Program-made: the position numbers and the translations under genes
Shown here: one piece after another, positions 2,831 to 22,443 of the stretch
Layout of the letters: every line of letters begins with the position of its first letter
Numbering within the stretch: the stretch's first letter is position 1
The notes under the pieces: generated by a model
The model's database searches: none
Told to the model about the DNA's origin: nothing
What the model saw: the letters and a program-made list of their open reading frames with translations, nothing else
IMG/VR virus record: IMGVR_UViG_3300006919_000352
Span: 1 to 26,898 of that record
Length of the DNA: 26,898 nucleotides
Strand: one strand, 5' to 3'
DNA from: a virus

Positions 2831-3610
2831 CTAACAAATTAGTGGAGCTTTGATAAACGCGTTATGCTTATAATTTACTACACTAAAGTTCTCTGGTTTG
2901 TGAATATTCCACTCCTCAACTAATAGCTCAGGAGCCTCCTGATGAATGTCTTGTTCAACTACTGCTTGAGCCATTTTTTCGTGCTCTAAATACAAATGAG
3001 CATTAGCAATTGACAAATATAATTTTCTTGGTGTTAGCCCTGTTTTGTGTGCAATGTAGTGTGCAAACATTGCTCCAACGATAATATCAAACGGCAGACC
3101 TAAAAATATGTCTGAGCTTCTAAAGTTCATTACTGTATGCAATTCAGTTCCAATTTTATAAAAGTTAAAACCAGTATAACAACAAGGCAGAGTTTGCTCT
3201 TCTAAGTCTGACGGGTTCCATAAAGTCATATAAGCTCTACGAGAATGCTCTTGACTTTTTAGCTGGTCAACAACATAGTTCAATTGGTCTTTATGCCCAT
3301 TAAAGTTTCTTAATTGATAGCCGTAAGATTTTGGAATTATGTTTTCGTCGTTTGCCCAGTTGTTCCACCAATAAATTTTATTCTCGTTTAAAAAGTTAAG
3401 GTCTTCTCTTCCTGCAGCTATCCAACAAAATTCAGCTATTGCTTTTTTCCACAATACTTTTTTCAATGTAATAACAGGGAAGCCTTTAGCCAGGTCAATT
3501 TCCATTGATTCATTTATTAAGGGTTTTATTCCTCCATTGCGGCCCGTTACAGTAACTTTAGACGCTAAAGCTTTTTCAAGCAATTCTTTGTATGCAATAT
3601 CGTATTCCAT
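2831..3610 (-). CDS. thymidylate-synthase-fold enzyme, predicted dCMP (hydroxy)methylase
   Basis: This 259-aa protein has thymidylate synthase architecture throughout. R24 and the GFPVIT motif (43-48) come first, then E60, the Trp pair in YWWNNW (80-85), R124-R125, the nucleophile C144, R164-S165-S166-D167, H205 and Y207. It ends with IKAPLIC. The position matching E. coli TS Asn177, which selects dUMP, is Asp175 here (LPFDI instead of LPFNI); I checked the codon, GAT at 3088-3086. Asp at this site is the mark of dCMP-directed relatives such as T4 dCMP hydroxymethylase. The residue after the nucleophile is Tyr145, where TS usually has His. I therefore predict action on dCMP, as a hydroxymethylase or methylase, rather than ordinary dTMP synthesis. 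ATG 3610 is preferred because it sits one base after the upstream stop; the longer frame to 3661 would overlap that gene. Confidence 0.85.
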   Translation of the reverse strand: MEYDIAYKELLEKALASKVTVTGRNGGIKPLINESMEIDLAKGFPVITLKKVLWKKAIAEFCWIAAGREDLNFLNENKIYWWNNWANDENIIPKSYGYQLRNFNGHKDQLNYVVDQLKSQEHSRRAYMTLWNPSDLEEQTLPCCYTGFNFYKIGTELHTVMNFRSSDIFLGLPFDIIVGAMFAHYIAHKTGLTPRKLYLSIANAHLYLEHEKMAQAVVEQDIHQEAPELLVEEWNIHKPENFSVVNYKHNAFIKAPLIC

Positions 3611-3611
3611 T

Positions 3612-3872
3612 TTATTTGTTTTTAAAGTTATCAAGTCCAGCAACATAACCGCAAATGTCAAGCAACGTGTCTTGTTTAGTTTGATAAGCTAAGCGAGAAA
3701 CTTTTAAAGCAATCATACATTTGTACATATCTTCAGCTGTTATATTCTTATTCGTTAACTCGCTTGCAACTACAGCAGCTTTAGCCATTGATTCATTCAT
3801 TGGCCCGTACTGTCTTTGCTTTTCTCCAGCTTGCTCGTTAATTAATTTGTTTGCTTCCAGTAGTATATTCAT
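3612..3872 (-). CDS. DUF6378-like protein
   Basis: This 86-aa protein matches my memory of the phage DUF6378 domain: an N-terminal helix ILLEANKLINEQ, the YGPMNESM loop (22-29), the TAEDMYKCMIALKVSRL segment and the terminal LLDICGYVAGLDNF helix. In many phages this domain is encoded beside or fused to nucleotide-metabolism proteins, and it may belong to the MazG-like alpha-helical group, but its activity has not been established to my knowledge. The start lies 35 bases inside the previous gene and the stop is one base before the thymidylate-synthase-fold enzyme, so these two are probably made together. Confidence 0.75.
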   Translation of the reverse strand: MNILLEANKLINEQAGEKQRQYGPMNESMAKAAVVASELTNKNITAEDMYKCMIALKVSRLAYQTKQDTLLDICGYVAGLDNFKNK

Positions 3873-7083: not shown

Positions 7084-7614
7084 TTAATATTTGTTAAGAT
7101 TAATGTTTTGCCATAAGGCGTTCTGTTTGTTTTTATAGCGTCTTCTCGCTTTTATATGCTCAACCGATTTGTATTTTGAATGGGTTGGCAAACCGTTATA
7201 CATTTGGTCATGATTCATTTCATGTGAAGCATAGCCTTCAAATAGCATATTCCAATAAGATTCTGAAGGGTCATAAATTCCTCTAGCATTTTGTTTTGTC
7301 ATTTGGTAAATCATTATGCTTTCTGGTTTACCATTGAATAAAATTGGTTCATAGACTTTTCCGTAAAAACTAGGGAAGCCCTCAAGCCTGTCAAGAGACT
7401 TCTCGCATTCCTCAGTAATTAACCAGGCTGCTCCTTCAATTTTGTCTTGTAGCTTGCCGGTATAAATTACGTCGCCAACTCCACGGAATACAAATTTATA
7501 ACCTTCTAAAGTTATCTTGCCTAAGCTTTTTGCAGCTGGGCACCTTCTTGCCATAGAATCTAAGTTAGTATTCATTCCATAAGCAAAGTACAATGTTTTC
7601 TTTTTGTTTGTCAT
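7084..7614 (-). CDS. gamma-glutamylcyclotransferase (GGCT/AIG2)-like protein
   Basis: This 176-aa protein begins with YFAYGMN at residues 9-15, the glycine loop of the GGCT fold (commonly YGSN or YGTL). It has a mid-region acidic motif LDRLEG (74-79), where E78 is the expected catalytic Glu, followed by an aromatic PSFYGKVYEP segment. Family members release 5-oxoproline from gamma-glutamyl amines. The gene follows the amidoligase gene after a 98-bp gap. The amidoligase plus GGCT pair is a recognised neighbourhood in phages and bacteria, interpreted as ligation and removal of a gamma-glutamyl-type amide bond. The C-terminal 50 residues are basic and extend past the usual fold. The fold call is good; the substrate is unknown. 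Confidence 0.82.
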   Translation of the reverse strand: MTNKKKTLYFAYGMNTNLDSMARRCPAAKSLGKITLEGYKFVFRGVGDVIYTGKLQDKIEGAAWLITEECEKSLDRLEGFPSFYGKVYEPILFNGKPESIMIYQMTKQNARGIYDPSESYWNMLFEGYASHEMNHDQMYNGLPTHSKYKSVEHIKARRRYKNKQNALWQNINLNKY

Positions 7615-7712: not shown

Positions 7713-8540
7713 TCACACTCTTCTGTTTGCTGTTGCCCATTCGAACACTCCAGAAACATCGTTGTTGAAGTGAGTAGCTCTGTTCATAAAGAACTTCATT
7801 ACTTTTCTGTTTTGACCTCTTCCGAAAACTTCAGTAACTGAATGTTTGAATTCACCTTTAGTTTTTACAACGTGGTTTTTCTTTTTAACAACATCACACA
7901 TGTTGCATAAAAGCACTATCCAGTTGCAAACTTTTTCAGCGTCAGTTGAACCACCGTGTTGTCTGAATTCTACAGTACCATATTTTCTGTAAGAGAATAC
8001 ATTTACAACTCTGTAGCGTGAGCTCATTACGTTTTCAACATCTCTAAAGTCTTCGCAAGAATTTAAGCGGTTCCAGATTCTGTTAATTTCAACTGGTCTT
8101 GCCCAACGGTTATTGTTTAAAGCTCTTCTTGAAGGTTGCATTACCATATCAATTTCCTCTTGGTGTTTAGCGTAAAACTTTATAAGGTTAGTTAAGTTAG
8201 TAGTTGAATAATCAGTAATGCCAACGTGAACATGTACACCGCAAGACTTGTTTACTTTGCAACCGTATTCAGTAATTAAGTTTAGGACTTGAGCCATTTT
8301 GTTTAAACCTTCTTGACCCTGTAGAATTGGAGAAACTAATTCCATTTTGTAACGTCCGCCATTCACTGTAGAATCGTCAACTAATTTCCAAGTTGAAATT
8401 ACTTGGTGAGTATAACCCATATAAGAAGTAGGAATTCCAGCGTTACTTAATAAAGAAGCAATAGCACGTGGGCTTAAAGTCGAGTGACTCATTTCAATTT
8501 CTACTCCGAAAGTTCTGTTTGATTTTAATTTAGTTTTCAT
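7713..8540 (-). CDS. amidoligase enzyme (glutamine-synthetase-like fold)
   Basis: This 275-aa protein carries the marks of the putative amidoligase family (PF12224). FGVEIEM (11-17) provides the metal-binding acids. DDSTVNGG (55-62) and MELVSPIL (66-73) follow, then CGVHVHVG (100-107) and EFRQHGGS (191-198), which match the catalytic Glu, His and Arg positions of the glutamine synthetase / glutamate-cysteine ligase fold. These enzymes are predicted to make an ATP-dependent amide bond between a carboxylate and an amine, possibly on a peptide or protein. I choose ATG 8540 because MKTKLKSNRTFG leads directly into the first motif and an AC-rich leader precedes it; the frame runs to 8594 without family support. 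It is the first gene after a strong terminator and a promoter-like region, so it opens the second transcription unit. Confidence 0.85.
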   Translation of the reverse strand: MKTKLKSNRTFGVEIEMSHSTLSPRAIASLLSNAGIPTSYMGYTHQVISTWKLVDDSTVNGGRYKMELVSPILQGQEGLNKMAQVLNLITEYGCKVNKSCGVHVHVGITDYSTTNLTNLIKFYAKHQEEIDMVMQPSRRALNNNRWARPVEINRIWNRLNSCEDFRDVENVMSSRYRVVNVFSYRKYGTVEFRQHGGSTDAEKVCNWIVLLCNMCDVVKKKNHVVKTKGEFKHSVTEVFGRGQNRKVMKFFMNRATHFNNDVSGVFEWATANRRV

Positions 8541-8583
8541 AATTGTGTTTTTAATGTGTTTAGTTTGTGTTTGTTTGATGAGG

Positions 8584-8668
8584 TAAAGATACACCTTTTA
8601 CGTTACGTTGTTGAAAAAGATTAACTTTTTTTTAAAAAAACTTTGCTTTTTTTCAGTTTACTAGATAG
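8584..8668 (-). promoter_or_regulatory. promoter region of the amidoligase operon
   Basis: On the minus strand TATCTTTA (8591-8584) is one base off the Bacteroidota -7 consensus TAnnTTTG. It lies 44 bases before the amidoligase ATG. The 14-mer CTATCTAGTAAACT (8668-8655) sits upstream and is repeated exactly at 24687-24674 before another gene with the same leader style. A -33 box is not clear. The 5' leader is AC-rich with hardly any G. Confidence 0.6.
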
Positions 8669-11287: not shown

Positions 11288-13597
11288 TTATAATTTGTGA
11301 TGATTATTATCTTTTTCTAATAACAAAAGGTTGTTTATTATTATGTGATTAATATGGTGATTGTTTACTTTTATTCCAGTCACTTTTCCGTCTGTAGCTG
11401 TAAAGCTCATTGATAAGCTTCTCCACTCGCCAGACCATTCGTTTGAGCGAGCCGTAAACTTGCCTCCGTTAAAAATAAAATAGGTATCTCCAAAGCCTGT
11501 AATGTCTTCCCTATATGCCATGTGAAAAAATAACGGGTCAGGGTTAGGTCTGCTTGTTTCAGTTCTTAAAATTTTCCCTGTCATTATAATTTTCTGCTTG
11601 TTTGTTAGCCTCAAATATTCGTCTCCTTTTATAACTTGAGCAAGCAAATGAGTTATGTTTGGGTTGTTCCTGTAATACCATGAACCAGTTAGCCCCCATT
11701 GAAACATTTGCAAAAAGCCTGCGTTGCTTAAATAGAAGATATTATTTTTTCTAAATATTGCAGGCCCATCAAAAAACATACTTTTCTTTTCTACCTGTGC
11801 TCCACTAATTGTTGGGTCATTAGCATTTTGCTCAAAGAAGTAAACGTTTTGGTCATAGTTTTCTCCGTTTAAAAATAATGTTAAGCCTACTGTAACAAAG
11901 TTTTCAGCCGCTCCATAATTTCCTCCCGTGTCTAAAATTTGGTTAACTTCAATAGCTCCTGAAGTAACAACCCAGCCTGAAGCTGTAACATCTGTTTCTG
12001 TGTTTGCTATCGGGTCAATTTCAAAAACTCTATAAGCCGTGTGATACTTAATAGAACCATTTGAAGGAAGCTCCTCCATTTGTTCTAAATTTATCCCTCC
12101 TAAACTAAAAGAAAAATTTTGGTTCATGCCAGGTTGAAGGGTGTTAAACAAACCGAACTGGTTGTTCGCGTAAACGTCTTGCTGTGTTGTTTCCCATTCA
12201 TATTTGTCTGTAGCAGGATTGTACACTAACCAGTAGTCGTCTTGCCTAACAAAAAACATGAATTTAATTATATAAGCATTTTGAGGTTCTGTGTTTAACC
12301 AGCCTCCGACGGGAGGGACCGGACACTGTACATTAATACCAAAGTCCATTGTAAAAGTTATAAGGTCTCCAGCGTTTCCTCCCACATACGTGTTTATATA
12401 TTGATTTGTAGTAGGCTGCGAATTTACCCCCATTGCAACTGTCCCCAATAAAGCATAATCGTACTCAGCAGAACCAAACTCTTCTCCTGGTCCAAAAACT
12501 AAGTTTGGGCCGTCTTCAACCGTAAGAACAACGTCTCTAGTTCCTGGACTAAAGGTAAACATAATTTCAGCTCTTTGACAGTCGTAACCAGTATCTAAAT
12601 CTCCTAGCATTAAACCAGCATCAAAGGGACTTCCATTGTTGTAGTGTGTGCCACTTCTGTTATACTGGGAAGCTTTAACTGTAGGGCCTGGAGTTCCTGC
12701 TGCTGCTGTAACCGCTATCGCACTTAGTTGTTGAATTTGCCAGCACCCATCGCTCATACATATTCGAGCATTATAGAATTCTAAAATATATTTTAAAACG
12801 TCATAAGCACTCATGTATCTTATGCCTGAATTTTGTTCTGTATTTCCTACGGTATAATATGCGTCACTTCGCGCAAAACAAACCAGCATGGGATTGTATA
12901 AGCCATCGTCTTCTGAGTAAAAAGTTCTGTCTGTCCACCAGTTAAAATAAAGTTTTGCAAAAGCATTTCCTGGGTAGTTATCAATAAAAAAATTACTGTT
13001 AGCAGTAGGCAAAAGTCTTAAGATAGCCATCACTAAAGCATGGTGAGAATACCAGCTTCCACTCATTGCTCCATTAACACCTACAGCAAAGTTTGCGTCT
13101 GTCGCATTATTAGCTGTATCTTTTATATCTGTTAGCTCGTTTATTTTAAAGCTCTTAAGCAAGCTTAAACCGTCTATAGCACGCATTCTAAACGCTTGAG
13201 GGTAATGGTCGTCAGCTAAAGTTGTTTCTTGCAAAACTAAAATACCTTTCCAGATATAGCCTTCAGGTACAAAAGGCACTATTGGGTCGTTTTGAGTTCC
13301 TCCAGTATTTAACGCTATTTTAACTAGGTATTTCCCTACGTCAGCATTCATAATATCTAAAAAGAAAGCGTCGTCTGTTGAATTCTGACTATAAAAAGTA
13401 AACGAACATTCACTTGATTTTATTGGGTCGTCTATATCTTTTCCCTGTCCTGAATAACTAATTGAAAACCCATCAGCTCCAAGCGTAAATTCATCGCTGC
13501 TTGTTGGAGTGTTTTGTGTTTCACTATAAATTTCTACCTGGTAAAAATTTTCGTTGTCGTCTTTAAAACAACCGTACCTTTGAACGTACCATGCCAT
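11288..13597 (-). CDS. large tail protein, putative tail hub / baseplate
   Basis: This 769-aa protein begins with a beta-rich domain (YQVEIYSETQNTP, FTLGADGFSISYSGQGKDID) that recurs at the start of large tail proteins in Bacteroidota phages directly after the tape measure gene. The middle is long, Asn/Tyr/Gly-rich and beta-like; the end (HHINHIIINNLLLLEKD) is a short hydrophobic His-rich tail. The start overlaps the tape measure stop by one base (TAATG at 13597). Position and size suggest the distal tail / hub protein, perhaps with carbohydrate-binding domains. I see no lysozyme or peptidase catalytic signature. Confidence 0.7.
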   Translation of the reverse strand: MAWYVQRYGCFKDDNENFYQVEIYSETQNTPTSSDEFTLGADGFSISYSGQGKDIDDPIKSSECSFTFYSQNSTDDAFFLDIMNADVGKYLVKIALNTGGTQNDPIVPFVPEGYIWKGILVLQETTLADDHYPQAFRMRAIDGLSLLKSFKINELTDIKDTANNATDANFAVGVNGAMSGSWYSHHALVMAILRLLPTANSNFFIDNYPGNAFAKLYFNWWTDRTFYSEDDGLYNPMLVCFARSDAYYTVGNTEQNSGIRYMSAYDVLKYILEFYNARICMSDGCWQIQQLSAIAVTAAAGTPGPTVKASQYNRSGTHYNNGSPFDAGLMLGDLDTGYDCQRAEIMFTFSPGTRDVVLTVEDGPNLVFGPGEEFGSAEYDYALLGTVAMGVNSQPTTNQYINTYVGGNAGDLITFTMDFGINVQCPVPPVGGWLNTEPQNAYIIKFMFFVRQDDYWLVYNPATDKYEWETTQQDVYANNQFGLFNTLQPGMNQNFSFSLGGINLEQMEELPSNGSIKYHTAYRVFEIDPIANTETDVTASGWVVTSGAIEVNQILDTGGNYGAAENFVTVGLTLFLNGENYDQNVYFFEQNANDPTISGAQVEKKSMFFDGPAIFRKNNIFYLSNAGFLQMFQWGLTGSWYYRNNPNITHLLAQVIKGDEYLRLTNKQKIIMTGKILRTETSRPNPDPLFFHMAYREDITGFGDTYFIFNGGKFTARSNEWSGEWRSLSMSFTATDGKVTGIKVNNHHINHIIINNLLLLEKDNNHHKL

Positions 13598-16131
13598 TAG
13601 CTAAAACTATTTAAACGTTTGTTATACCTTTCATTTGACAAGAATATATCTTCCCCTGATATTCTACCGGTCACTATTACTTCTTGCCCTCCCATCATTG
13701 ATTTTAATTTAGACAGTGGAGCGATAACTTCAGGGTCAACATTTGCTCCAGGGTTATCACCAACTATTGCCGCTGTTTCGCCGAATGCTAAACCACCTTC
13801 TGCTAATGCAGGAAGCGGAGCGGCTAATACAGTACCAAGCTGAACAGCTCCCAAACCAGCTATAATTGCTGACCAAGGAAGTCCTCCTGTTAATGGGCTT
13901 GCGGCCACTGCTGCTATAACAGCACTTGCTGTATTCACAACGATTCCTAAAGCAGCTGTAGCTTTATCAATTTTCGCTTGACGTCTTGCAAGCTTTGCAT
14001 GCTCTTTTGCTGCTTTTTCTTCAATAGCTCCTTTGTTAGTTGCGTAATTAGTTTCAGCGTCTTCTAAAGCTTGGTTTTTAGCTTCTTCGCTCATTACACT
14101 ATTTTCTATTGCTTCAAGTTCTTGTTCATGCTGAAGTTGTAAATTTTCTAATTGTGCCGCTGTTTCTTGGTTTAGTTTTTCTTTTTGGTTGTTTGTATGC
14201 TGAGTGAGAATGTCCCCAAGCTGCCCGAAAACTTGTCCATAAGTGTTTTGAAATTCAGACAGTTTGCCTTCTGCTGTTGAAGCCCATTCGCTCCATTCGT
14301 CTTCTGACTTATCAAAAAACCCTTTTTGTTGGTCTTCAAAAGATTTGAAATAATTTGGGTCTGGTTCGGGCGGCCCCATCATTGGGCCACTAGGGTCTGT
14401 TGTTGTTGTGGTTGTTGTACCACCTCCGCCACTACTTCCAAAGAAGCCTGTTATTTTATCCATTACACTCTGAGCCATATCTTGAGCTCCGTCTACAGCT
14501 CCTTGAATATCGTCTTCAGTAATATATTTTATTGGGTTTTTTCCTTTTATATTGTCTATCCCTTTTGCAATAGCTTCTGCTGTAGTTTCTCCTAACTCTT
14601 CACCGGCAGCTAGAAGGTCTTTATTTTTTGAAGGGTCAAAAGTAGACGCTAAGGCTTCTTTAGCTTCATCTAAACCCTTAGCCAACGTGTCAATATCTAA
14701 AGTGAAAACACCTTTTATTATGTTACCTATTCCGCCAAACAAACTTGTGAAATTTGATGCAAAGGATTTTATTAAAGCTATACCTGCTTTTACAAAAAAC
14801 TTAATAGCCGCGACCGCCAGCTTAAACCTTAATGCAATTGCTTCGGCAATAACTCTTATTAAAGTAGATTCGTTGTATAAGTCAATAAAGTAATTAATAA
14901 CTTGAACCAAGGTCTTTTTAACTGGTTCCCAATTTTTGTAAATTAATATTGCTGCGCCTACTACCGCTGCGACAACTAAACCAACCGGCGAAAGGGCGGC
15001 TGCTAATACTGAACCAATTGTTCCAAGCAACGTTAACAAAGGCCCTATTGCTGCTGCGGCTGCTCCTGCTGCAACTATTAAGCCTTGTTGTTCTGAAGAT
15101 AAATTTGAAAACGCTGAAGCTCCTTTAGAAATGAAACCAATAACCTTTTGGAATATAGGCAAAAGAATTTCACCTAACTGTATTCCTACCCCTTCCAATT
15201 GACTTTGTAGCTTTCTCATAGACCCACCTAAACCGGAGTCCATTATTTCTGCCATGCTTTTAGCTTCGCCTTCTGAGTCTCTAAAGTCGTCCGTTAGGTC
15301 CTGTATTGCTTGCCCATTGTTCGCTAAGATAGTTGCGACGGTTGCCCCTCGTTTCCCGAACATTTCCATTGAGGTTGCTAATGGGTTGGTCGAGTTATTT
15401 ATTTGGTCCATCGCTTCGCCCATAGTCATTCCTTCTTTTGCTAAGTCAAGGAATATATTTCTTAAGGCTGTACCTGCTGTTGAAGCTTCAACTCCATTGT
15501 TTACTAAAACACCAAGAATTGCTGTTGTTTGTTCTAAGTCTGCTCCAGCTTGTTTTGCTACGGGTGCAACTGAGCTCATAGCAGTTTCAAATTTAGCCAT
15601 GTCTAATGCTGACGAACTAAACGAGTCTGCCATTATGTCGGCAATTTTAGTCATGTCAGAAGCTTCCATTCCGAAAGCCTGCATTGTTTTTGCTGCTACT
15701 GTAGCCGATTGAGCAAGGTCAGAATCTGTTGCCTGAGCTAGTGCTAGAATTGATTCTGTCGAGTTATTTATTTCCTCAGGTGTTAAACCTAACTTGGATA
15801 GTTCTAATTGAAGACCTGCAACCTGCGAGGCTGTAAACATCGTTGTTGAGCCTAACCTTTTTGCGTCTGCTTCTAGCGCTTTAAACTGTTGTCCAGTCGC
15901 TCCAGAAATTGCTTTTACTTTAAGCATAGCTTGCTCAAAGTCCATAAAAGTTTTTCCTGCTACAGCTGCTATTCCAAGAAGCGGAGCTGTTAAACTTGTG
16001 CTCATTGACTTACCTGCACGCTTAGCTCTGTTGCCGAATTTTGATAAACTTTTCTGCGCTTTATTTATTCCCTTTTGAAACTGTCTAGAGTCTAGTCCGA
16101 GGAATAAATTTATACTCTTTTTACTTGCCAT
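13597..16131 (-). CDS. tail tape measure protein (TP901 type)
   Basis: This 844-aa protein carries the TP901 tape-measure core at about residues 85-290, including TMQAFGMEASDMTKIADIMA and EQTTAILGVLVNNGVEASTA. The N-terminus has the VFLGxDxxxFxKGxxKAxxxLxxFG-like start (10-33). Hydrophobic segments at about 350-398 (GLIVAAGAAAAAIGPLLTLL, SPVGLVVAAVVGAAILIY) and again before the C-terminus probably insert in the host membrane during DNA entry. A Gly/Thr low-complexity linker lies near residues 565-580 and a charged coiled coil at about 630-700. At roughly 1.5 angstrom per residue the tail would be about 125 nm; this is a rule-of-thumb estimate. It follows an intergenic element (16142-16216). 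Confidence 0.92.
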   Translation of the reverse strand: MASKKSINLFLGLDSRQFQKGINKAQKSLSKFGNRAKRAGKSMSTSLTAPLLGIAAVAGKTFMDFEQAMLKVKAISGATGQQFKALEADAKRLGSTTMFTASQVAGLQLELSKLGLTPEEINNSTESILALAQATDSDLAQSATVAAKTMQAFGMEASDMTKIADIMADSFSSSALDMAKFETAMSSVAPVAKQAGADLEQTTAILGVLVNNGVEASTAGTALRNIFLDLAKEGMTMGEAMDQINNSTNPLATSMEMFGKRGATVATILANNGQAIQDLTDDFRDSEGEAKSMAEIMDSGLGGSMRKLQSQLEGVGIQLGEILLPIFQKVIGFISKGASAFSNLSSEQQGLIVAAGAAAAAIGPLLTLLGTIGSVLAAALSPVGLVVAAVVGAAILIYKNWEPVKKTLVQVINYFIDLYNESTLIRVIAEAIALRFKLAVAAIKFFVKAGIALIKSFASNFTSLFGGIGNIIKGVFTLDIDTLAKGLDEAKEALASTFDPSKNKDLLAAGEELGETTAEAIAKGIDNIKGKNPIKYITEDDIQGAVDGAQDMAQSVMDKITGFFGSSGGGGTTTTTTTDPSGPMMGPPEPDPNYFKSFEDQQKGFFDKSEDEWSEWASTAEGKLSEFQNTYGQVFGQLGDILTQHTNNQKEKLNQETAAQLENLQLQHEQELEAIENSVMSEEAKNQALEDAETNYATNKGAIEEKAAKEHAKLARRQAKIDKATAALGIVVNTASAVIAAVAASPLTGGLPWSAIIAGLGAVQLGTVLAAPLPALAEGGLAFGETAAIVGDNPGANVDPEVIAPLSKLKSMMGGQEVIVTGRISGEDIFLSNERYNKRLNSFS
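14393..14425. repeat. triplet microsatellite in the tape measure gene
   Basis: A GTT-type triplet run codes for a poly-Thr stretch next to a run of four Gly (SSGGGGTTTTTTTD). It is a low-complexity linker between tape-measure domains and a likely site of length variation. Confidence 0.6.
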
Positions 16132-16223: not shown

Positions 16224-16619
16224 TCATTTTCTTACTTTGTCAAATAGGGTCAAATTACTAGATAAGCCTTCTTGAGGCTTTTTTTGTTTTGCAAGCTCCC
16301 TCTTTTTTCTTGCAAATAGTGCTGCTTCTTGCCTTTCTTTGAGCGATTTTACTTTGCCACTTTTCTTGTCTTTCGGCAATGGAATTATGTCTTTTGGTTT
16401 TAACGATTTCCCCTTTTTCATGTGAGGTTGTAAAACGAAAACAGCCATTGTTCGGAGCAAGTCCCAATTGTGAATTTGCTCGTCCTCCAGTTTTTTCAAA
16501 TATCCTTTTTGCATAAGCCTAAACTCACGCATTGTTAAATTCCAAAACTGTTCTGGAAGCAAGCCTAAAACGCCATAGGCTGTAACTTCCAAGTCTTCAA
16601 AGGTTATTTCTTCTTGAGG
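16224..16619 (-). CDS. tail assembly chaperone, T domain (-1 frameshift extension)
   Basis: This reading frame has no convincing start of its own: the first usable codon would be a TTG at 16592, inside conserved-looking sequence. Read from the slippery site it gives PQEEITFEDLEVTAYGVLGL followed by LPEQFWNLTMREFRL and LKPKDIIPLP, the pattern of the second half of phage G-GT tail chaperones. The 3' half is very basic. With a -1 shift at 16619-16625 the fused protein would be 242 aa (111 from the G frame and 131 from this frame). The product binds the tape measure during tail assembly. It lies directly before the tape measure gene, as expected. Confidence 0.78.
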   Translation of the reverse strand, partial: PQEEITFEDLEVTAYGVLGLLPEQFWNLTMREFRLMQKGYLKKLEDEQIHNWDLLRTMAVFVLQPHMKKGKSLKPKDIIPLPKDKKSGKVKSLKERQEAALFARKKRELAKQKKPQEGLSSNLTLFDKVRK

Positions 16620-16951
16620 CCCTTTGTCGCCTCCTTCGCGTTTCCCTTTGTGTTGCTTTTAACATTAAAGCTATTTCCAAAAAGTTTCATTGCTTTTTCT
16701 AAAAGCTCAATGTCAGTGTCAAGTGCGTCTGCAATATCGTCAACAGTTAAGTCACACGATTTGTTTGCTTTTCTCGCTCCATCTCTTAAGCCGCAAAGAA
16801 TTAAACAACAAGCCTCATCCAGCCCCATGTTATTTCCCAATTCTGTAATTTGATTCAAGCCAACATTTTGCTCTTGGCAATACATTCTCAAAGCATTCAT
16901 TCCGAAACGGATTGCATAGCTTTCCCCATTTATTTCTATTAAGTCGTACAT
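16604..16951 (-). CDS. tail assembly chaperone, G protein
   Basis: This 115-aa acidic helical protein (LIEINGESYAIRFGMNALRM at the start, then GLDEACCLILCGLRDGARKA and DDIADALDTD) has the composition and position of phage tail assembly chaperones between the major tail protein and tape measure genes. The last 20 residues become Lys/Gly/Thr-rich and include two slippery heptamers, so most ribosomes would stop at TAA 16606-16604 while a fraction shift to the T frame. Start is ATG 16951. A 73-bp gap separates it from the major tail protein gene. Confidence 0.8.
   Translation of the reverse strand: MYDLIEINGESYAIRFGMNALRMYCQEQNVGLNQITELGNNMGLDEACCLILCGLRDGARKANKSCDLTVDDIADALDTDIELLEKAMKLFGNSFNVKSNTKGNAKEATKGLKKK
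16619..16625 (-). promoter_or_regulatory. -1 frameshift slippery site A AAG GGC
   Basis: On the transcribed strand A AAG GGC is an X XXY YYZ heptamer exactly in the zero frame of the G gene. After slipping, AAA GGG pairs with the same tRNAs and the ribosome enters the T frame. An AAGGAGG sequence (16636-16630) lies 4 bases upstream. Confidence 0.78.
16643..16649 (-). promoter_or_regulatory. second in-frame slippery heptamer A AAG GGA
   Basis: This is a second X XXY YYZ heptamer, also in the zero frame, 24 bases upstream of the first. Slipping here also opens the T frame without a stop, so either or both could be used. Confidence 0.6.
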
Positions 16952-16965
16952 TTTTCTATTTGTTT

Positions 16966-17061
16966 TTAAAAAGAAAAGTCAGGGCGTTTTGCAGTCAAGC
17001 TCAGCCCGTCGTCCTCTAAAGTTATTATGAATTTGTAGCCTGAGTAACTTGTCCCGTGCAT
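16966..17061 (-). CDS. possible 31-aa peptide overlapping the major tail protein end
   Basis: An ATG at 17061 opens a 31-codon frame, -1 relative to the major tail protein, ending TAA at 16968-16966. The peptide MHGTSYSGYKFIITLEDDGL continues to a SLTAKRPDF end and has a plausible beta-hairpin look, and it fills most of the 73-bp gap before the chaperone gene. I see no slippery site that would make it an extension of the tail protein. It may be a chance frame. Confidence 0.3.
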   Translation of the reverse strand: MHGTSYSGYKFIITLEDDGLSLTAKRPDFSF

Positions 17062-17462
17062 TCAAATGAAGCAGAAAAAGTTGAGCTATCTTCAACGCCT
17101 GAGCTTATAGCTAAGCTTGTCATGTAAGCTTTAACTTGATAAACTTTGTCGCCAGTTTCAGCAGTACCAAACTCTATATTGAATAAAGTTCTTGCTACCC
17201 ATAAGTCATAAAGGTCTTCATAGCCTAACGTCGCGTCTAAAGCCGTCATAGCTTCAACGTCAACACTAACACTTCTTAAGCCTTCTAAACTTTCTGAGTA
17301 GCCTGCACTGTCTTTTGTTGTTGCTTCTCTTGTTTCCATAGAGAAAGTTATGTTTGCTGAAGTTGCGTGGGTAATTGCTACAAATGTAGTCCCACCACCC
17401 CCAGACGCCACGTCAACCCCTACAAAGAGGTCCGTTCCGTTTACTATTCCAGTAGTAGCCAT
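17025..17462 (-). CDS. major tail protein (TP901-1 type)
   Basis: This 145-aa beta-rich protein fits the major tail (tube) protein. The start MATTGIVNGTDLFVGVD, the TREATTKDSAGYSESLEGLR segment and the C-terminal AISSGVEDSSTFSASFECTG strand pair are characteristic of the TP901-1 / gpV-like family, which stacks in hexameric rings around the tape measure. Gly-rich residues 21-25 form a loop. Its ATG overlaps the upstream TAA by one base. Gene order (terminator, small gene, tube, chaperones, tape measure) supports the call. Confidence 0.85.
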   Translation of the reverse strand: MATTGIVNGTDLFVGVDVASGGGGTTFVAITHATSANITFSMETREATTKDSAGYSESLEGLRSVSVDVEAMTALDATLGYEDLYDLWVARTLFNIEFGTAETGDKVYQVKAYMTSLAISSGVEDSSTFSASFECTGQVTQATNS

Positions 17463-20937: not shown

Positions 20938-22443
20938 TTATTTAAGTTTAACAATTTTTAATTTACGAGCGGCAAGGCTTCGATTCCAAGAATCAATTTC
21001 CTCGTTTTTCATTTCCTCTTTTTCACGCTCTAGAGTCTCCTTCATATTGTCTTTCCAAGCTTCCATACTTCTTAAACCAACAGAAGCATTTGGATATGCC
21101 GGATAGGTGACTGCGGACACGTCATATAAACGAGAAACTTTTTTAATAGTTCTAACCGCTGCACCATTTTCTCCTTGTTCCCATGAATCGTCTTCAACAG
21201 TAAAAGCAAATGAGCTTTCTGAAATATCACCACGCTTTAAGCTAACTAATAAATCACGACCTGCTGAAGTGTCTGGAATAGCTACTTCATATCTCAAACC
21301 TTTATCGTCAACACGAAGCTTTAAAGTTCCTGAAGTTGTTCTTCCCATAATATAATTTGGGTCATGGTTTAATAAGAAACGAACATCGTCTTCTTCACGT
21401 CCACTAAAAGCATCTCTTGAAATAAATTCAGTAAAGCCTCCTAAGTTATTAGATTCTGAATTGAATACAGCTCCATAACCAACCACAATATTTTTTCCAC
21501 CTTCTTCTCTTACTTCAACATTTTGCAAAGCAAAGTTTCTTGTTTCAACATCAGGCGAAAGTTTAGAACGATAGTCTTCTTCTTTTGAGTTATCCTCTAC
21601 CATTACTTCTTCTTCGTTTTGAATCTCTTCAGTTTCTTTTACTTTTTCAACTTCTTCAGATTCTTCGTCATGAATTTTTTTGTAGTGAATAATATATTCG
21701 TCTTCAGTTTCTTCAAACTTTGTTATGTGTCGAGCTTCAGAATTCTTTAGCTCTTCGATAATTTCATTTTGTTTTGCTTCCATGTCATTTGACTTTGATT
21801 CGTTTTTTATTTCATTAACTTTTTTTCTTGACCAAGAAAAACCAGGGTCTCCTCCCCATAACGCCCACGCAATTCGTCCATTGCTTGGATAGCCTTCTTC
21901 ACCAGGTCTAAAGCCCTCAGCTTTTTTGTCAACCTCGTGGCGACTAAAAAAAGAGAACATTCTTTTAATTGAGCTTAAGCTTAAGTTGCTTCCATTTGCA
22001 ATGTCTCTTGCTCTTGCAATTCCAACCGCTGTTCCACCTCTTCCAAACTCTCTTCGCCAAGCTAAACCCATTTCAGCTTCTTTAACCATTCCTTTAGTTG
22101 GTTTTCTGTCAATATCAGCTAAAGCTCTTTCGTCCATTTCTTTTTTTACTGGGTGTTTAGCCGGTAATAAATCTGTGTCGTGTTTTCCTCTTCTGTATTT
22201 TCCTTTTTCTAAAGCATATAAAAAAGAATTCACACGAGCATAAGCCCACTGGTCTGCGCTCTTAACTGTCGGACGCACACTTGACGGGTTTGATTTGTAT
22301 GCTCCCAGGCCTCGTTTAAAGACTTCTAAGACAGTTTTGTAAGTCACCTTAGCATTATACTCAAAGGACTTATCTTTAACCTCCTGGTTGTGTTCTTTAA
22401 CTTTATTTCTTAAAGCCTTCTCTATTCTTTTACTTATCGCCAT
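20938..22443 (-). CDS. prohead protease fused to two extra N-terminal phage domains
   Basis: This 501-aa protein is more than twice the usual protease length. Residues about 34-95 are one phage domain (LEVFKRGLGAYKSNPSSVRP, QWAYARVNSFLYAL). Residues 114-207 are another (AEMGLAWRREFGRGGTAVG, KKAEGFRPGEEGYPSNGRIA) that I have seen in many phage structural proteins without a known role. Residues 220-295 are an acidic coiled linker. Residues 300-460 are the HK97-family serine protease (U35): VVGYGAVFN, catalytic H360 in LLNHD, Ser410/411 in GDISESSFAF, and YDVSAVTYPAYP. The acidic linker may act as a scaffold. An internal ATG at codon 221 (MEAKQNE) could also yield a shorter 281-aa protease. The start overlaps the portal gene by 14 bases. 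Confidence 0.88.
   Translation of the reverse strand: MAISKRIEKALRNKVKEHNQEVKDKSFEYNAKVTYKTVLEVFKRGLGAYKSNPSSVRPTVKSADQWAYARVNSFLYALEKGKYRRGKHDTDLLPAKHPVKKEMDERALADIDRKPTKGMVKEAEMGLAWRREFGRGGTAVGIARARDIANGSNLSLSSIKRMFSFFSRHEVDKKAEGFRPGEEGYPSNGRIAWALWGGDPGFSWSRKKVNEIKNESKSNDMEAKQNEIIEELKNSEARHITKFEETEDEYIIHYKKIHDEESEEVEKVKETEEIQNEEEVMVEDNSKEEDYRSKLSPDVETRNFALQNVEVREEGGKNIVVGYGAVFNSESNNLGGFTEFISRDAFSGREEDDVRFLLNHDPNYIMGRTTSGTLKLRVDDKGLRYEVAIPDTSAGRDLLVSLKRGDISESSFAFTVEDDSWEQGENGAAVRTIKKVSRLYDVSAVTYPAYPNASVGLRSMEAWKDNMKETLEREKEEMKNEEIDSWNRSLAARKLKIVKLK

Follow-up and report, generated by a model that had tools for sequence, protein, structure and literature searches.

In the viral record IMGVR_UViG_3300006919_000352 of IMG/VR, whose 26,898 bases were analysed as a whole and are referred to here as the window, a siphophage tail module lies on the minus strand (as do all features described below), with its genes in the order major tail tube protein (17025..17462; PF06199, 2.2e-13), G, T and tape measure protein (13597..16131; PF10145, 2.4e-34). 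Based on its site between the tail tube and tape measure genes, the open reading frame (ORF) at 16604..16951, encoding 115 amino acids, is taken to be G, the 0-frame product of the tail assembly chaperone genes. The overlapping G and T ORFs occupy the same place as in lambda G/GT-type systems, and from the sequences we consider it very probable that T is reached, as there, by a programmed -1 frameshift, signalled by the heptamer GGGAAAC, a spacer of 6 nucleotides and a hairpin.

The window T matches PF09550 (Phage_TAC_6) at 5.9e-7, above the family cut-off, and 10 of the 11 members of the alignment of T homologs (A4) match it at an E value of 0.01; the T match of the relative L028 falls below the curated cut-off. 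G resembles phrog_2115, a 'tail protein', only weakly (1.9e-4), and among its homologs this family and one unnamed family were each matched in 8 of 11. Tblastn with the window G in named phages gave no match; among PDB sequences the G profile found nothing up to an E value of 1 and the T profile a single chance-level match (E 0.98).

The 3' end of G reads ACA AAG GGA AAC GCG AAG GAG GCG ACA AAG GGC CTC AAG AAG AAA TAA, the stop codon being at 16606-16604. The T frame is -1 relative to G and open from about 16658 to its stop at 16226-16224, in agreement with an earlier note on this DNA, which had proposed that a -1 shift joins G to T. Direct reading also confirmed the positions and the G frame of the two slippery heptamers named there, A_AAG_GGA (16643..16649) and A_AAG_GGC (16619..16625); what that list overlooked is a third, G_GGA_AAC (16640..16646), equally in frame and sharing four bases with A_AAG_GGA. 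Read after a -1 shift at this site, the T extension (16224..16640) comprises 138 codons and a stop. Three in-frame sites of the type X_XXY_YYZ thus fall within the 18-codon overlap, where about 0.2 would be expected from the 47 such sites across 11 minus-strand ORFs of the window (4211 codons), an excess which, coming from a single genome alone, is suggestive only; what decides the matter is the conservation among relatives.

Conservation of the slip site

The peptide patterns used to collect relatives among viral contigs took in neither the junction nor the slip site; 80 of 112 loci were kept when selected by G and 80 of 339 when selected by T. From 82 loci (79 of the 80 G-selected ones together with L009, L010 and the Bacteroides phage L098), 67 distinct junction regions were obtained, and 66 of these contain GGGAAAC, compared with 7 for A_AAG_GGA and 1, that of the window's own lineage, for A_AAG_GGC. 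The lone exception is the Bacteroides phage, which has A_AAA_AAA instead. Counted by locus, GGGAAAC stands in frame where G and T overlap in every one of the 81 loci selected by G (a count from which the Bacteroides phage is excluded; L019, a 100% match as is L018, enters neither this count nor the 67 regions) and in 82 of the 89 selected by T, the latter made up of the 80 kept, two from a T scan of genome contigs and seven further loci, with L005-L007, L010, L011 and L016 excluded.

The seven T-selected loci without GGGAAAC are all distant. Five of them (L012, L013, L014, L015 and L017) offer A_AAA_AAA or A_AAA_AAG as candidates, L099 has G_GGA_AAG, and in L100, from a Firmicutes metagenome-assembled genome (MAG), the overlap examined holds no X_XXY_YYZ heptamer, which weighs against extending the frameshift signal to all TAC_6 proteins. 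G_GGA_AAG is also found in L180, and A_AAA_AAA in L181; both derive from flavobacterial family genomes, in which they are possible prophages with distant G/T pairs, and L099 is a flavobacterial distant relative as well. The heptamers of L099, L180 and L181 indicate that the preference for AAC belongs to this phage family and does not extend to the host group as a rule.

Within the family the constraint at the slip site acts on nucleotides rather than on the protein. The residue encoded directly before GGA AAC varies across 58 distinct segments (Glu in 43, Lys in 9, Ser in 3, Val in 2, Gln in 1), yet the third base of its codon is always G (GAG, AAG, TCG, GTG and CAG, respectively), whereas in the remainder of these G genes the codons for the same five amino acids mostly do not end in G. 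Likewise, the Asn codon at the site is AAC in 58 of 58 segments, compared with 160 of 308 Asn codons in the rest of G and 771 of 2492 in long ORFs. The -1 frame itself narrows the position of the shift: a T-frame stop lies within 15 nucleotides before the heptamer in 59 of 75 distinct GGGAAAC segments and directly abuts GGG in 17, so that in these 17 the shift has to take place at GGGAAAC or later and an upstream A_AAG_GGA would be unusable. The T frame of one contig (L025, 3294-3344) is closed by a stop 17 codons past the slip site; this contig is probably damaged or erroneous.

The downstream hairpin

In the window the heptamer is followed by a 6-nucleotide spacer (16634..16639) and by a hairpin, identified by stem search and folding, with the 5' arm GAGGC (16629..16633), a loop of 8 nucleotides (16621-16628) and the 3' arm GCCTC (16616..16620). 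A stem is present in all 75 distinct segments, starting 6 nucleotides after the heptamer in 67 and 7 nucleotides after it in 8, with 4 to 6 pairs, loops of 4 to 13 nucleotides and 18 types of arms and loops. Differing stems carry compensatory changes, as in GAGGAG/CTCCTC, GAGGTG/CACCTC, GCCGC/GCGGC and GCTCC/GGAGC. When the position of the stem was slid along 58 segments, five of five pairs could be formed at +6 in 46, at the register-shifted +7 in 35, at +22 in 16 and elsewhere in 0 to 4, and of 9000 dinucleotide shuffles made from 18 representatives, 25 attained the stem score observed. Covariation was scored in an alignment of 21 rows with a loop of 7 (A7; 13 of them distinct), in which two stem pairs show changes on both sides: the score amounts to 0.308 versus 0.111 for shuffled alignments, none of 500 shuffles reached it, and slid partners attained at most 0.115. 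In the revised stem alignment L090 and L176, which have five-pair stems, were taken out and L102 and L105 included, while alignment A5, being ungapped, was excluded from the pair counts. An Rfam scan of 16400-16800 gave no match up to an E value of 5.

The sequence AAGGAGG (16630..16636), to which the earlier note had drawn attention, comprises the final bases of the spacer and most of the 5' arm; the pairing of 16633-16629 with 16620-16616 further places the second of the heptamers named there in the loop and 3' arm. Since AAGGAGG overlaps the arm and is located 3' of the conserved slip site, it is better explained as part of the conserved hairpin, and not as stimulating that slip site.

A longer fold can be drawn for the window as well, covering 16598-16650, in which the heptamer region pairs with 16603-16598 (-16.4 kcal/mol, z -3.73); L059 shows an outer pairing resembling it. 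Such a structure, as modelled, could modulate the shift in the window's lineage.

Frameshifting and its alternatives

Most ribosomes would end G at the TAA codon. A minority, positioned over 16645-16640 with GGA (Gly) in the P site and AAC (Asn) in the A site, would slip one base back to GGG AAA, probably helped by the small hairpin, which would stall or pull on the ribosome from 6 nucleotides 3' of the heptamer. The shifted ribosomes would read on in the T frame and yield a GT fusion with a predicted length of 104 + 138 = 242 amino acids, in which 104 G residues ending in ...NTKGN are joined to the T-frame sequence REGGDKGPQEEITF.... By analogy with lambda, G and GT may subsequently act on the tape measure protein as chaperones and recruit tail tube subunits, and slippage would set the ratio of G to GT. 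We infer the slippage itself, its rate and the stimulation by the hairpin, as well as this role in tail assembly; the frame layout, the conserved heptamer and spacing, the conserved stem with its compensatory changes, and the lack of an ATG start in T are directly observed.

Several points weigh against this interpretation. In E. coli, G_GGA_AAC is termed a low-efficiency heptamer in the part of the work consulted (PMC4066793). The window hairpin has a short stem of 5 base pairs (-9.5 kcal/mol, z -1.95), and the hairpin energy of L010 is not clearly lower than that of shuffles (z -0.61). When arms were exchanged between stem classes, 108 of the 306 combinations still formed at least 4 pairs, a GAGG/CCTC core being common to many arms. 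It should also be noted that the 75 segments are related and do not represent 75 independent events, and that in the window A_AAG_GGA stands one codon upstream of GGGAAAC and could contribute to the shift.

This last point leads to the best of the alternatives, which we nevertheless regard as very improbable: slippage at A_AAG_GGA, at A_AAG_GGC or at both, the second aided by AAGGAGG as an internal Shine-Dalgarno (SD) sequence. Both heptamers are in the G frame and within the open T frame, and A_AAG_GGG counts as one of the efficient motifs in E. coli according to the sections seen of PMC4066793, so that the related A_AAG_GGA could slip somewhat; the same sections report, however, that GGN codons on average are less shift-prone than AAN. 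The rarity of both heptamers among the relatives argues against their being the slip site that the earlier note had supposed them to be. AAGGAGG does lie 4 nucleotides before the second heptamer, but an SD-like role there is not upheld, given the overlap with the hairpin arm and a distance outside the 9-14 nucleotides described for -1 stimulation in the available part of PMC5009743. The change of slip site also alters the predicted protein: the junction peptide proposed earlier, TKG joined to PQEEI, gives way to ...NTKGN followed by REGGDKGPQEEI, and a search for the former would miss the main product.

Less probable still is a separate production of T by initiation at an internal start codon within the T frame. 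A TTG is present at 16592 in the window, and 56 of 73 relatives have one between the slip site and the end of the conserved FW motif of T (L025 and L166, not matching the motif pattern, were left out). The position of the first TTG, however, varies from codon 18 to codon 71, and the same stretch lacks ATG in 68 of the 73 relatives and any ATG, GTG or TTG in 14. In the window, too, T offers no ATG upstream of its conserved domain, as the earlier note had remarked for this part of the frame. T is thus without the ATG in A-rich context on which the window's genes rely, as judged from an SD-like 4-mer in only 1 of 29 starts (ATG-start ORFs judged likely genes only).

We give hardly any credence to slippage of the RNA polymerase instead of the ribosome as the source of a shifted message: seven consecutive A occur in the hairpin loop of several relatives, yet this run is not kept (loops such as GACAAAGG, GAAG and AAAGAAGAAGAAA occur), whereas GGGAAAC and the stem are, and the longest run within GGGAAAC is three. 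A split of the frames through sequencing error or gene decay, for which the early stop in L025 shows at least that single contigs can be damaged, is refuted because the same -1 layout, with kept heptamer and stem, recurs across many samples, in 67 distinct loci.

Probable host and related systems

The gene starts of the window resemble those of Bacteroidota, being poor in SD-like sequences and rich in A (52% in the 20 nucleotides upstream versus 37% overall), and Bacteroidota ribosomes are reported, in the portion of PMC9976891 seen, to be unable to recognise SD sequences. SD-like 4-mers are present at -22 to -8 of the heptamer in 3 of the 75 distinct segments, and 4% pair with the anti-SD at -5 kcal/mol or better, compared with 13% at random positions. 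T homologs were found on a contig of a Polaribacter MAG and, with that MAG included, in 3 of 397 genomes of its family, in which G gave a single weak match (L182); distant matches in Bacteroides phages were also among the relatives. The scan of genome contigs with G gave no relative, and that with T gave two, one of them the Firmicutes MAG locus L100. The portal and tape measure proteins have their best matches in phages of Firmicutes. Judged from these sequences, the host of this uncultured phage family is probably a member of the Bacteroidota.

Elsewhere in the window, on the same strand, a prohead protease (20938-22443; PF04586) carries an N-terminal extension resembling DUF5824, just under the cut-off, and a thymidylate synthase (2831-3661; PF00303, 2.8e-60) is listed with a TTG start that is probably too early. 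A gamma-glutamyl cyclotransferase (7084-7614; PF06094, 4.8e-8) adjoins an Amidoligase_2 protein (7713-8594; PF12224, 2.7e-34), a pair which suggests a phage-borne peptide or glutamate modification pathway. The protein encoded at 11288-13597 gave no tblastn match in named phages.

Frameshifts of the -1 type in tail chaperone genes are well known, reportedly from Xu, Hendrix and Duda in 2004. In lambda, many G and few GT molecules, in a ratio of 30:1, serve as tail chaperones that connect the tape measure with the tail subunits, according to the part of PMC5009743 available to us. The window differs in its A-site codon (AAC instead of AAG in lambda), in its conserved downstream hairpin and in having a Phage_TAC_6 protein as T; the comparisons made found no sequence match between the window G and lambda G. 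GGGAAAC itself has been named before in tail chaperone genes. For gp18/gp19 of the Burkholderia phage KL1 it was predicted as slip site together with an mfold stem-loop within 35 bases downstream (PMC3483164), as slip site and stem-loop are predicted here; as far as that source was seen, though, KL1 is a single phage of another host phylum, with the site directly before the stop codon and no comparative support given. G_GGA_AAC is also reported as the tail chaperone slip site of the Caulobacter phage Colossus (PMC3556154) and of the haloarchaeal virus HCTV-1 (PMC5009743), whose hosts are unrelated, the passages seen making no mention of a downstream structure, and it probably is used by insertion sequence (IS) elements (PMC4066793, seen in part). 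The window signal therefore belongs to a known kind. E. coli dnaX, as described in the part seen of PMC3711429, likewise combines a heptamer with a hairpin, but has an upstream SD-like stimulator of the type that is rare here.

Less ordinary are the near-invariant AAC and the presence of a hairpin without an SD sequence in a probable non-SD host. A search of openly licensed papers found no such signal reported for phages of Bacteroidota, and the frameshift studies found for this phylum deal with prfB and its SD-dependent +1 site (PMC8710568, seen in part). We may speculate, although we hold this to be rather doubtful, that the cassette is adapted to SD-independent ribosomes, dispensing with an upstream SD, relying on the hairpin alone at the fixed 6-nucleotide spacing and keeping AAC as Bacteroidota ribosomes or transfer RNAs slip differently.

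What the data provide is a comparatively supported -1 signal, with 75 distinct segments, a covarying stem and fixed spacing, in phages that probably infect Bacteroidota. A signal based on a hairpin only would allow one to ask how ribosomes shift to the -1 frame in the absence of SD pairing, and it also raises the question why a heptamer that is weak in E. coli is retained. For gene models, the T genes of the relatives need to be annotated as joined GT, with the junction placed at GGGAAAC.
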